Made by a program: the position numbers and the translations under genes. From contig NZ_JAALJI010000001.1 of assembly GCF_011064595.1 (NCBI RefSeq), positions 62,001 to 126,000 of the forward strand: a stretch of DNA of 64,000 nt, read 5' to 3'. The notes below the pieces were generated by a model, which was given only the letters and a program-made list of their open reading frames with translations, was not told the origin of the DNA and ran no database searches. Each line of letters begins with the position of its first letter. Within the stretch, counting starts at the first letter, position 1. The DNA comes from Paludisphaera soli. Its GTDB lineage: Bacteria; Planctomycetota; Planctomycetia; Isosphaerales; Isosphaeraceae. Positions 39,922-49,806 of this stretch are shown piece after piece.

Positions 39922-41565
39922 ATGGCGAAACGACCGAGCGTCCAGGAGATCTTGCAAGCCGCCCGCGGCGGAGGCCCCACCCCCTCCCCGGTCGCCGAGG
40001 CCGCCGAGTCGCCGAGCGAGCAGCCCGCGCCGACGCCCGTCTCCCATGTCGGAGTCCGCCCCGGCGCTCCCCGCCCCCGGCTCTCCCTCCAGGAGAAGCT
40101 CGCGAAGGCGCAGGCCGAGCGCGAGGCCCGCGCCGCCGGTCCCCCGCCCTCGCCAGTCCGGCTGACGCTCCAGGAGAAGCTGGCGAAGGCTCAGGCCGAG
40201 CGCGAGGCCCGCGCGACGGGCTCGACCGCCGCGGCGCCGACGGCGAAGGCCCCGGTCGAGGCTCTCCCGGGCGGGACGCCCCCCCGGCTCACGCTCCAGG
40301 AGAAGCTGGCCGCCGCCCGAGGCAAGCAGCCGGCCGCCCCCTCGGCCCCCGCCCCGCCGCCGGCCGCGCCCGCGGCCGAGTCGTCCGGCCCCGGTCGGTT
40401 GTCGTTGCAGGAGAAACTGGCCGCCGCCCGATCCGGGAAGTCCGCCCCGCCGCCGGCGTCGGTGAAGCCCGCGCCGGAGGCGGCCGGCGAGGCGTCGGCG
40501 AGACCGCTTTCGATGCAGGAGAAGCTGGCCGCCGCCCGCTCCGGCGGGTCGGCCCGGCCGACGCCCCCTCCCGCATCCGCGTCGCCCGCCCCCCCGATCG
40601 CCGGCGAGGGCGGAAAGGCGATGTCGGTCAAGGACAAGCTCGCGGCCGCGCGATCCGACGCCGCGTCGACGCCCGCCGGGCCGGCCCCGGACGCTCCCCC
40701 GACCGAGGCCGCCTCGCCGGCGAAGTCGATGTCGGTCAAGGACAAGCTCGCCGCCGCGCGCGGCCAGTCGCCCGCGGCCGCCGAGACGACGCCGGCCCCG
40801 GCGACGGCGCCGCCCGCGGCGCCTCGGACCGCCTCCGCCGATCGGGTCCTGCCGCCGCTGGCCGAGATGACCGATCCCAAGGACCTCGCCGAGGCCCTCC
40901 GCCGCACCGGGGCCCGGAAGGCCGCCGAGGCCGCCGCCGCGCCGGCCGTCGCGAAGGCCCCGGGCCGTCCCGCCACGTTCGTCCCGCCCGATCCCGCCGC
41001 CCGCGCCGCCGTCGCGGAAGCGCCGCTCGAACGGCCGACGCGGTCTCAGGTTCGGGTCGACCGCCGGGGGTTGCTCGTGTACGCGTCGTGGTGGGTCGTG
41101 ATCGCCTGGGTGGCGCTGGCCGCGACGATCGGCCTCCTGTCGATGATGGTCCTGCGGTTCCTCTTCCCCAACGCCAGCCCCGAGCCCCCCAGCACGGTCC
41201 GGTTGGGCTTCCCCTCCGATTACGAGCCGGGCGAGGTCAGCGAGCGGTTCAAGGACCGCTGGGGCTTCTGGGTCGTGCGCGACCGCGACCCGAAGGGCCA
41301 GGAGGTCCTCTATGCCCTGCAGACCTACTGCACCCACCTGGGCTGCCCGCCGAGCTGGCTCCCCGGCGAGCGGAAGTTCAAGTGCCCCTGCCACGGCAGC
41401 GGGTTCTCCAAGGACGGCGTGAACTTCGAAGGTCCCGCCCCCCGCCCCCTGGAACGCTACAAGATCGGCCTCGCCGACGACGGCTCGATCGTCGTGGACA
41501 AGGGCCAGACGTTCCGCAAGGACCTGGACCAGTGGTCCGACCCCGACAGCTTCCTCGCCGTCTAG
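39922..41565 (+). CDS. Rieske iron-sulfur protein with repetitive N-terminal extension
   Basis: A 547-residue Rieske subunit of a b6f/bc-type quinol oxidase. The start MAKRPSVQEILQAARGG at 39922 follows GGAAACGAACG. Residues 1 to about 345 are Ala/Pro-rich and contain eight copies of a short motif: SVQEILQAAR, then LSLQEKLAKAQ, LTLQEKLAAAR and MSVKDKLAAAR variants. A transmembrane helix (LLVYASWWVVIAWVALAATIGLLSMMV) precedes the Rieske domain with C470-T-H472-L-G-C475 and C488-P-C490-H491, the full [2Fe-2S] ligand and disulfide set. It transfers electrons from quinol to cytochrome c. Typical Rieske proteins are about 180 residues, so the extension is exceptional; its function is unknown. Confidence 0.9.
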   Translation: MAKRPSVQEILQAARGGGPTPSPVAEAAESPSEQPAPTPVSHVGVRPGAPRPRLSLQEKLAKAQAEREARAAGPPPSPVRLTLQEKLAKAQAEREARATGSTAAAPTAKAPVEALPGGTPPRLTLQEKLAAARGKQPAAPSAPAPPPAAPAAESSGPGRLSLQEKLAAARSGKSAPPPASVKPAPEAAGEASARPLSMQEKLAAARSGGSARPTPPPASASPAPPIAGEGGKAMSVKDKLAAARSDAASTPAGPAPDAPPTEAASPAKSMSVKDKLAAARGQSPAAAETTPAPATAPPAAPRTASADRVLPPLAEMTDPKDLAEALRRTGARKAAEAAAAPAVAKAPGRPATFVPPDPAARAAVAEAPLERPTRSQVRVDRRGLLVYASWWVVIAWVALAATIGLLSMMVLRFLFPNASPEPPSTVRLGFPSDYEPGEVSERFKDRWGFWVVRDRDPKGQEVLYALQTYCTHLGCPPSWLPGERKFKCPCHGSGFSKDGVNFEGPAPRPLERYKIGLADDGSIVVDKGQTFRKDLDQWSDPDSFLAV

Positions 41566-41601
41566 CCCCGGCCGAGCCGGCCCCCAGCCTTCGAGACCCC
41601 C

Positions 41602-42375
41602 ATGCCGATCCTGGAACGCCTCGCGAAGACGCAGGCCTGGAAGAGCCTCTTCCGCCACCCGATGCCGACCGATCGTCGCAGCCGGGTCCAGGTCATGCTG
41701 TCGAACTTCTTCCTGCACGTGCACCCGGTCAGCGTCCGCAAGCAGGGGATCGCGCTCAGCTACACCTGGTGCATGGGGGGGGCGACGTTCTTCCTGTTCC
41801 TCGTCGAGGTCGTCACCGGCGTCCTCCTGATGTTCTACTACCGGCCGACGCTGGAGCACGCCTACAACGACGTCCTGGCCCTCCGCGACGTGACCACCCT
41901 CGGCGTGCTCCGAGAGCTTCACCGCTGGGCGGCCCACGCCATGGTCATCGCCGTCTGGCTGCACATGTACCGGGTCTTCCTGACCGGCAGCTACAAGCCC
42001 CCGCGCGAGTTCAACTGGGTCATCGGCGTGATGCTCCTGGTGCTGACGCTGCTCCTGTCGTTCACCGGCTACCTGCTGCCCTGGGACCAGCTCGCCGTCT
42101 GGGCGATCACCGTCGGCTCGAACATGGCGAGCGCGACGCCGGGCCTGGGCGTCGAGGGCCCCGGCTCCGGATTCCTGACGCTCAACGGCGTGAAGCTGAT
42201 CACGCCGACGTCGGACGCCCGGTACGCGATGCTCGGCGGGGCGAGCGTCGGCGAGGCGGCGCTCAACCGCTTCTACGTCCTCCACTGCGTGGCGATCCCG
42301 CTGGCCGCGTCGCTGCTCATCATGGTCCACTTCTGGCGCGTCCGGAAGGACGGCGGGATCAGCGGCCCCCTGTGA
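41602..42375 (+). CDS. cytochrome b N-terminal half (b6-like)
   Basis: A 257-residue diheme cytochrome b with four transmembrane helices. The haem-ligand histidines are visible in helix B (H107 and H121, spacing 14) and helix D (H228 and H243, spacing 15), the latter spacing being b6-like. Cys57 in [10 protein letters not shown] aligns with the cytochrome b6 cysteine that binds haem c_n (YCLGG context), and the following [13 protein letters not shown] also matches b6. It is the core of the quinol oxidation complex with the Rieske gene 36 bases upstream and the subunit IV-like gene 18 bases downstream. Inner membrane. The c_n assignment is from motif alignment only. Confidence 0.92.
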
Positions 42376-42393
42376 CGTGAACGCGAGCGCGAC

Positions 42394-43977
42394 ATGCACG
42401 AAGACGCCAACCCCGACGTCCTGGCCGGCCTGGCCTGGTACTACCTGCTGGCCTCGACCCTGAACGCGGCGGCCGCTTGCCGCTTCGCCTACCACGAGAT
42501 GGTCTCCGAAGGGGCCTCGCGCGAGGGCTGCTCGCCCCGGACGCGGCGTCCCCCCGCCTGGCTCGCGCCGACCTCGATCGCGCTCTACGCCCTGGCCCTC
42601 GGCGCGGCCCCGCTCCGCGGCCTCCTGCCGGGCGGCCTGACGCTGGCCTACGGGCTCGTCGCGCTGGCCAACGGCCTGCTGGCGCTCGCGGCCGGGGCCG
42701 ACTCGGCGCACTTCGCGGAGGTCCGGGCGTCGTCCGGCGTCCACGCCGACGAGCGGGAAGGCCGGCCCACGCTCGACGACCACATCCCGGCGGTCGGGCT
42801 CGGCGGGCCGATCAATCGCACGCTCTGGTCGCTGGTCGCCGCGGTGATCGCGGTGGTCTACCTGGCGATCGGCCTGACGTATCTCTTCAACGGCACGCTG
42901 GTGCTGCCGGGCTTCGTCCGCGCGGCGGTCGATTCGGCCGCCGGGCCGACCTCGTTCTTCCTGGGGGCGACGCTCCTGCTCGCCGGCCTCTTCGCGTTCC
43001 GTCGCGCGTTCGCCAGCGGGCTGGTCGCGTTCGGGATCGCCAACGGGGCGATCCTCGCCTTCGGCCTGAGCCTCACCGACGCCGACTTCCGCGAGATCGT
43101 CGCCCGGCCGGACAACGTGCCGATCGTCGGCATGATCGTCCTGGTGGCCGCGTTCACCTGGCTGGCCCTCCGCCGCGCCGTCATCAACGACGCACGCCGC
43201 GAGGCCGGGCTCCCCGTGCTGGAGGAGCTGGAGCCGGACAAGGTGCTGACCTGGCCCGACCTGGTCTACGTCGAGCTGATCTGCATGGTCGCCCTGACCC
43301 TGTTCCTGATCGCCTGGGCCGTGGCCCTCCCCGCCCCGCTGGAGCAGCCGGCGCGGGCGACCGAGGCCCCGAACCCGTCGAAGGCCCCCTGGTATTTCCT
43401 GGGCCTCCAGGAGATGCTCGTCTACTTCGACCCCTGGCTGGCCGGCGTCGCCTTGCCGGTTCTCATCATCGTCGGCCTCTGCGCGATCCCCTACCTCGAC
43501 ACGAACAAGGACGGCGCGGGCTATTACACGATCGCCTCGCGACCGTTCGCGTACGCGGTCTTCCAGTTCGGGTTCCTGGTGCTCTGGATCGTCCTGATCG
43601 TCTTGGGGACGTTCCTCCGCGGGCCCAACTGGAACTTCTACGGGCCCTACGAGCGCTGGGACCCCCACAAGGTCGTCCCGCTCAACAACGTCGACCTGTC
43701 CGACCTCGTCTGGGTGCGGGCGCTGGGCCGGGCGAAGCCCTCGTGGGCCCTGGTCCGCGAGCTGCCCGGCCTCACCCTCCTGGCCCTCTATCTCGTGGCC
43801 CTGCCGACGCTGCTCCTGAGGACGGCCTTCAAGGACTACGCCGCGAGGTCCGGCCGCACCCGGGCCGTGGTGACGGTCGTCCTGCTGCTGCTGATGGCCG
43901 GCCTGCCCCTCAAGATGATCCTCCGCTGGACCTTGAACCTGAAATACCTGATCGCCGTCCCCGGATTCAACATCTGA
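42394..43977 (+). CDS. cytochrome b C-terminal half / subunit IV-like membrane protein
   Basis: A 527-residue membrane protein. The first part (to about 310) has several hydrophobic helices not found in ordinary subunit IV. The later part resembles cytochrome b C-terminal domain: NPSKAPWYFLGLQEMLVYFDPWLAGVALPVL, PYLDTNKDG, then GPNWNFYGPYERWDPHKV and final helices. The Qo-site PEWY motif reads APWY, without the Glu. Together with the b6-like gene 18 bases upstream it forms a split cytochrome b. The N-terminal extension may be a fusion with an additional membrane subunit. Inner membrane, part of the quinol:cytochrome c oxidoreductase. Confidence 0.85.
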   Translation: MHEDANPDVLAGLAWYYLLASTLNAAAACRFAYHEMVSEGASREGCSPRTRRPPAWLAPTSIALYALALGAAPLRGLLPGGLTLAYGLVALANGLLALAAGADSAHFAEVRASSGVHADEREGRPTLDDHIPAVGLGGPINRTLWSLVAAVIAVVYLAIGLTYLFNGTLVLPGFVRAAVDSAAGPTSFFLGATLLLAGLFAFRRAFASGLVAFGIANGAILAFGLSLTDADFREIVARPDNVPIVGMIVLVAAFTWLALRRAVINDARREAGLPVLEELEPDKVLTWPDLVYVELICMVALTLFLIAWAVALPAPLEQPARATEAPNPSKAPWYFLGLQEMLVYFDPWLAGVALPVLIIVGLCAIPYLDTNKDGAGYYTIASRPFAYAVFQFGFLVLWIVLIVLGTFLRGPNWNFYGPYERWDPHKVVPLNNVDLSDLVWVRALGRAKPSWALVRELPGLTLLALYLVALPTLLLRTAFKDYAARSGRTRAVVTVVLLLLMAGLPLKMILRWTLNLKYLIAVPGFNI

Positions 43978-44045
43978 GGCGAGGGCGCGAAGGCACCCGC
44001 CCGGCCCGCGACGACGCGGAACCGCCGATCGAAGGATTCCCCGCC

Positions 44046-49806
<5,761 letters not shown>

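Follow-up and report, generated by a model that had tools for sequence, protein, structure and literature searches.

The gene at 41602..42375 (plus strand, 257 aa) of the window, by which we mean the whole 64,000-nucleotide stretch of Paludisphaera soli DNA analysed here, very probably encodes the cytochrome b, of b6 type, in an oxidoreductase of four subunits that transfers electrons from menaquinol to cytochrome c or another high-potential acceptor, with a haem c_n site made up of Cys57 of this protein and Glu294 of the neighbouring subunit IV. In such a complex menaquinol would be oxidised at the p-side, one electron passing via the Rieske cluster to a membrane-anchored octahaem cytochrome that stands in the place of cytochrome f, and the other via the two haems b to an n-side quinone site, in a probable Q cycle. 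A third haem, haem c_n, would sit at this n-side site, attached to Cys57 through a single thioether bond and ligated by Glu294 of subunit IV. Menaquinol is the likely substrate since MqnC, of the futalosine route to menaquinone, is found above its cut-off in the same genome, where MenD gives a sub-cut-off match only.

The cytochrome b gene is the second of four genes (39922 to 47732), in the order Rieske protein, cytochrome b, subunit IV-like protein and octahaem cytochrome c, which are followed by a gene that reads, by eye, as a DNA ligase. The Rieske protein (39922..41565, plus strand, 547 aa; PF00355) has, judging from hydropathy and domain matches, a long Pro/Ala-rich N-terminus, one transmembrane helix and a C-terminal Rieske domain, the latter matching 9rk3 best in the PDB (144.3 bits, versus 63.5 bits for 9rk4 and 53.5 bits for the b6f PetC chain 1q90_C). 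Inspection of its N-terminal part showed seven repeats of the LSLQEKLAAAR type (40081..40761, plus strand), and EKLAAAR or ILAAAR repeats are also present in the Rieske tails of several other loci (e.g. L054, L057, L060, L084 and L009). The subunit IV-like protein (42394..43977, plus strand, 527 aa) is encoded by the gene directly after cytochrome b and matches PF00032 with 23.0 bits (cut-off 20.7 bits), which bears out the split cytochrome b of the original prediction; its PDB matches to b6f subunit 4 are weak (E 0.0009-0.005). Hydropathy indicates an N-terminal membrane extension of ~230 residues in this protein (42394-43100), and lengths in the family, counted from stop to stop, range from ~250 aa in the anammox-type loci to >500 aa. 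The last of the four genes (44046..47732, plus strand) encodes a c-type cytochrome of 1228 aa with a hydrophobic helix close to the N-terminus (residues 17-35) and eight CxxCH motifs, at residues 259, 323, 378, 406, 518, 705, 859 and 1109. Its residues 54-211 have a weak SMC match (17.5 bits, E 0.0007, far below the cut-off), and this segment appears to be coiled-coil-like.

The composition of the operon bears on the type of enzyme. The Pfam matches of the octahaem protein are cytochrome c models, including FixO (39.5 bits, above the cut-off) and Cytochrome_CBB3, which represent c-type subunits of cbb3 oxidases and not the oxygen-reducing subunit, and the four proteins include neither an oxygen-reducing haem-copper subunit nor a bd catalytic subunit; the term quinol oxidase used in the original prediction is therefore wrong, and quinol:cytochrome c reductase fits. 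Cytochrome f was absent from the Pfam hits of the octahaem protein at E 0.001 and from the four operon proteins, its place being taken by the octahaem cytochrome, and thus the description of the complex as b6f-like, and not a mitochondrial-type bc1, is valid for the membrane core only, for which both sequence and fold agree with it.

With regard to this membrane core, the four-helix cytochrome b matches the Pfam models PF00033 (142 bits) and PF13631 (N-terminal cytochrome b, 114.3 bits). The PDB sequence ranking is headed by the b6 chains 1q90_B (156 bits) and 6rqf_I (150.4 bits), versus 94.7 bits for the top bc1 chain, and in a fold search with the AlphaFold model the b6 chain 4ogq_A came first (Z 20.7, 184 residues at 2.2 A), the top bc1 chain being 8asi_B (Z 18.7). 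The model was built from 92 aligned family rows (pLDDT 81.3), with a 13-row model (pLDDT 58.6) discarded; as residues 40-43 and 49-53 are below 50 and block 31-40 has a mean of 58, it gives no support for the placing of His39 or His41. The four haem b ligands His107, His121, His228 and His243 (span 41920..42330, plus strand) are conserved in 180/180 (His107, His121) and 179/180 (His228, His243) distinct homologues. The top NCBIfam models were NF040969 (ExtP) for cytochrome b and NF040970 (ExtQ) for subunit IV, named for proteins of selenite/tellurite operons, both with scores under the curated cut-offs (258.6 versus 290 bits for NF040969), which places the window cytochrome b outside ExtP.

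An ordinary bc1-type complex is highly improbable, even though the proteins belong to the same superfamily and bc1 chains fit the model with Z up to 18.7. The helix-D histidine spacing, which had been put forward as b6-like, does correspond to b6 (H228-H243), but is found by eye in the bc1-type cytochrome b of the same genome (L001) as well, and was rejected as evidence for b6 since it does not discriminate. Against a bc1-type complex stand the split subunit IV, the c_n cysteine, the first rank of b6 chains in both searches and the separate bc1-type copy L001 itself, which is preceded by its own Rieske gene, has a frame that continues as a cytochrome c portion containing two CxxCH motifs, and has a Val at the position of Cys57. 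A mitochondrial-type bc1 identity was likewise rejected, the cytochrome b being split and carrying the c_n cysteine and not forming a single chain without it.

Cys57 (codon 41770..41772, plus strand) is one of only two cysteines in the protein and lies in the context TWCMGG, followed by FYYRPT. In all five HMMER alignments printed it falls on the C of the b6 motif FYC(I/L)GG, paired with residue 35 of 1q90_B, 6rqf_I, 2zt9_A and 1vf5_A and with residue 42 of 7r0w_I. The proposed match with b6 Cys35 is thus upheld by the alignment with b6 that had been suggested as part of a check, which puts Cys57 on the c_n site and not away from it, and at the level of sequence it is confirmed that this cytochrome b carries a c_n-type cysteine site, the place of putative haem c_n attachment. 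Conservation was assessed in 190 cytochrome b sequences, or 180 distinct ones after merging of 10 identical sequences, comprising the best 80 of at least 591 matches to the Cys-row alignment and loci hand-picked among the matches listed; with such sampling, biased towards near relatives, the proportions given are not frequencies in nature. Position 57 is C in 147, G in 31 and V in one (L001) of these, with one gap, and this retention makes chance a poor explanation for Cys57.

The partner residue, Glu294 of subunit IV (codon 43273..43275, plus strand), aligns in a weak PDB alignment (best E 0.0009) on the Phe following LLYV, residue 40 of b6f subunit IV, and we take this Phe40 to be the b6f residue for which a Phe-Tyr mutant has been made. 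A glutamate is present at this position in 145/146 loci with Cys57, the remaining one (L106) having a gap, and also in 21/21 members of one group with Gly57 and in L127 and L190, and in a mostly fused Gly57 lineage the position is E in 6/8 and I in 2/8. According to PMC12954380, a Phe-Tyr mutant is known at the equivalent b6f position, and a glutamate is the second ligand of the low-potential c_N haems in models of the Kuenenia complexes; this c_N-ligand glutamate is probably the equivalent of Glu294.

The Kuenenia complexes also allow the window operon to be placed. The PDB entry 9rk3 matches the Rieske protein of locus L037 over its whole length (273.6 bits), as does 9rk4 that of locus L034 (195.7 bits). 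L037 combines genes for a Rieske protein, cytochrome b and subunit IV with genes for an octahaem cytochrome and for a pyridine nucleotide oxidoreductase that has FeS domains, and L034 has such an oxidoreductase plus cytochromes with six and eight CxxCH motifs. Because these Rieske matches and the gene content, which is the one given for Kustd1480-1485 and Kuste4569-4574 in PMC12954380, agree, both loci probably derive from anammox bacteria. The octahaem cytochrome of the window is related to that of L037 (E 3e-62, 26% identity). Kustd1480-1485 of Kuenenia stuttgartiensis and the window have in common a b6-like cytochrome b with a c_N site, a separately encoded subunit IV whose ligand position is occupied by Glu, an octahaem cytochrome c, a Rieske protein of the 9rk3 type and the equivalent of His39. 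Kustd1480-1485 includes an NAD(P) oxidoreductase gene, whereas the operon of the window, with its four genes between 39922 and 47732, has none and is therefore a relative without the NAD(P) module. Two further differences from the Kustd1480-1485 type are the length of subunit IV (527 aa versus ~284 in the L037 ORF) and an extra N-terminal extension of ~370 residues on the Rieske protein. With the b6f complex the window shares a b6 protein of four helices carrying the Cys of position 35, the split subunit IV and the haem b histidines, whereas it has the octahaem cytochrome for cytochrome f, Glu for Phe40 and, from the alignment, a loop between helices 3 and 4 that is ~20 residues longer than in b6. 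The menaquinol:cytochrome c reductase QcrABC of Bacillus also has a b6-type cytochrome b with covalent haem and uses menaquinol, covalent haem binding by the Bacillus subtilis cytochrome b having reportedly been described by Yu and Le Brun in 1998; its c-type subunit differs in kind from the octahaem cytochrome of the window.

Among the titles and abstract openings listed in the literature searches, PMC12954380 alone could be recognised as treating complexes of this kind. In it, c_N haems ligated by glutamate are present in the models of both Kuenenia complexes, and hence the planctomycete haem c_n site is not new: the original prediction, which confined haem c_n to b6f complexes and some Firmicutes, understated its occurrence, and what the window adds is a form with four genes in which the NAD(P) module is absent. 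The site is ordinary for its family, and the family is known from anammox bacteria.

Within this family the operon is recurrent. Rieske, subunit IV and multihaem genes lie beside the cytochrome b gene in 99/113 loci with enough flanking sequence, and an ORF with eight CxxCH motifs in 92/113 of these, being the second, HAO-like one in loci of the L034 kind; a Rieske gene was found near 158/180 distinct cytochrome b genes. The operon is also carried by a cultured planctomycete, Adhaeretor mobilis (L084). In a number of loci (L041, L042, L152, L153, L155, L186 and L104) cytochrome b and subunit IV were seen with no Rieske or multihaem gene nearby, and for L041 a Pfam search of nine neighbouring ORFs gave no redox partner. 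In the phylum draw, 165/294 genomes had a cytochrome b match at 1e-10, distant bc1-type matches included, as had 94/155 of the genomes that were >=90% complete and <=5% contaminated. The named records among the matches listed include metagenome-assembled genomes labelled Acidobacteria, Vicinamibacteria, Thermoanaerobaculia, Gemmatimonadota, Latescibacterota, Omnitrophota, Woeseiaceae and Bacteriovorax, labels which can be wrong. Three GTDB records (L056, L058 and L069) carry the title 'Candidatus Kuenenia stuttgartiensis', but their cytochrome b shares 78-83% identity with that of the window, against 58-59% in L037 and L034, the loci of anammox type, and these titles look wrong. A plasmid search gave 99 records, all at <60% identity.

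The Gly found at residue 57 in 31/180 homologues, including the kinds represented by L047 and L053, shows that the cysteine is not indispensable in the family. Its distribution was followed on a tree of 57 rows, from which column 57 was excluded, consisting of 54 family rows (40 Cys, 14 Gly; mutual identity <80%, length >=200 residues), L001 as outgroup and two b6 chains. Three changes between Cys and Gly are needed on this tree, the bootstrap of which had not settled, and as many are already forced by its starred branches, versus ~12.5 needed on average with shuffled labels; the tree gives the number of changes, with loss and gain being indistinguishable. Cys is the residue found in b6. The first Gly group has split genes and comprises 21 sequences, four of which are in the tree as one starred clade, and sits among rows of families f45 and f76, which hold the anammox-type loci. 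The second consists of nine mostly fused proteins of cytochrome b and subunit IV (support 93/97, not starred), including L175, which was assigned by its place in the tree and has two split genes, and with L173 and L176 cut by a contig end, and the third is the single locus L127. The other cysteine of the window protein, Cys229 (codon 42286-42288), directly follows the haem b ligand His228; it is kept in 146/147 rows with Cys57 (the other being a gap) and in 21/21 of the first Gly group, and is replaced by Val in all nine of the mostly fused lineage.

These data also bear on the possibility that Cys57 is a structural or relic residue to which no haem is attached. This would be in line with the Gly-bearing homologues and with the genome itself, in which searches for CCB1 and CCB2/CCB4, maturation factors for c_n of the chloroplast type, found nothing; in controls with 14 genomes these factors were found in Synechococcus only, with Bacillus subtilis being negative too. 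The retention of Cys in 147 of the 180 homologues, together with that of the glutamate in all but one of the Cys-bearing loci, argues against such a role and makes it improbable, as does position 64, on the same helix as Cys57, which is F (142) or L (5) in all 147 Cys rows and differs in the Gly rows, being Y or W in 20/21 of the first group, Y in L127 and S, V or A in 8/9 of the fused lineage. Since there are few independent changes, this apparent covariation of positions 57 and 64 is suggestive only.

A covalently bound haem c_n at Cys57 thus stays the preferred reading, and a further histidine raises the matter of additional haem on the n-side. PMC12954380 describes a haem b that AlphaFold3 predicts at the interface of the dimer, with His62 (Kustd1481) or His43 (Kuste4571) as its ligand and Arg266/Lys267 (Kustd1481) or Arg247 (Kuste4571) nearby. 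If starts at Met2 (L037) and Met20 (L034) are assumed, these numbers coincide exactly with the His that opens HLHP and the Arg of RKDGG in both loci, at a His-Arg distance of 204 residues, and the window equivalents are His39 (codon 41716..41718, plus strand) and Arg248/Lys249. His39 is H in 178/180 distinct homologues, the exceptions being the bc1-type L001 (R) and L190, whose sequence is cut off before this position, and is invariant in the 92-row alignment A2 (from which L001 was left out), where Cys57 varies. To our knowledge b6 has no His at this position, in a region that lies outside the b6 alignments made here. Arg248 is R in 180/180 distinct homologues and is common to b6 as well; in a smaller alignment, L001 has a Y there. 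The sequences therefore show that the predicted interface ligand also occurs outside the complexes that have an NAD(P) reductase, and conservation does not by itself prove the haem.

This is relevant to a scheme, put forward for the anammox complexes, in which the Q cycle is not the main route and the n-side is where the low-potential electron leaves or enters via haem c_n, possibly with the interface haem, a soluble carrier or NAD(P) being the acceptor of an electron that leaves. The near-invariance of His39 fits such a scheme, as do the NAD(P) oxidoreductase genes of L034 and L037 and redox modules fused to Rieske proteins elsewhere in the family. A search of the ORFs of 193 loci with one query domain of each kind gave a ferredoxin-like domain at the Rieske N-terminus of five loci (L016, L108, L116, L117 and L133), all with Cys57. 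Of the four scanned with Pfam, L016, L117 and L133 reached the PF13370 cut-off and L108 had no Pfam match, the L016 domain matching L108 at 1.6e-49 and L116, which was not Pfam-scanned, at 2.9e-24. A flavodoxin domain was found at the same end in four loci of family f26 with Gly57 (L043, L142, L143 and L144; the cytochrome b of L142 is identical to that of L043), with a PF00258 match of 73.5 bits in L143, which the other three match at 1.8e-107 to 2.9e-104. The Rieske helix runs N-in in known complexes, and if it does so here both kinds of domain would lie on the n-side. This is also the side on which the anammox NAD(P) reductase is placed (PMC12954380). The window operon itself lacks such a module, and Pfam gave no redox domain in its Rieske N-terminus at E 0.001, so that for the window complex n-side exit or entry is rather unlikely and a menaquinol:cytochrome c reductase with a Q cycle is preferred.

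For the family as a whole, we tentatively consider it possible that all members have a dimer-bridging haem b at His39, forming an n-side electron port together with haem c_n and serving varied low-potential partners, with non-covalent haem at the c_n site in the Gly lineages. The latter may apply since the covalent anchor is absent and the glutamate present in at least two lineages. If true, the NAD(P) reductase, ferredoxin and flavodoxin would be alternative partners attached by evolution to the same n-side port. A second look is merited by the near-invariance of His39, by the recurrent Cys/Gly changes in which the glutamate mostly persists, and by the fusions with ferredoxin and flavodoxin. 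What haem c_n does has long been a question in the b6f field. The family described here is a respiratory one with Cys in some members and Gly in others, in operons that are otherwise much the same, and with a predicted ligand of an extra haem, the fifth histidine, that is nearly invariant; this variation and the fifth histidine together may make the roles of the n-side haems comparable between natural, non-photosynthetic complexes.
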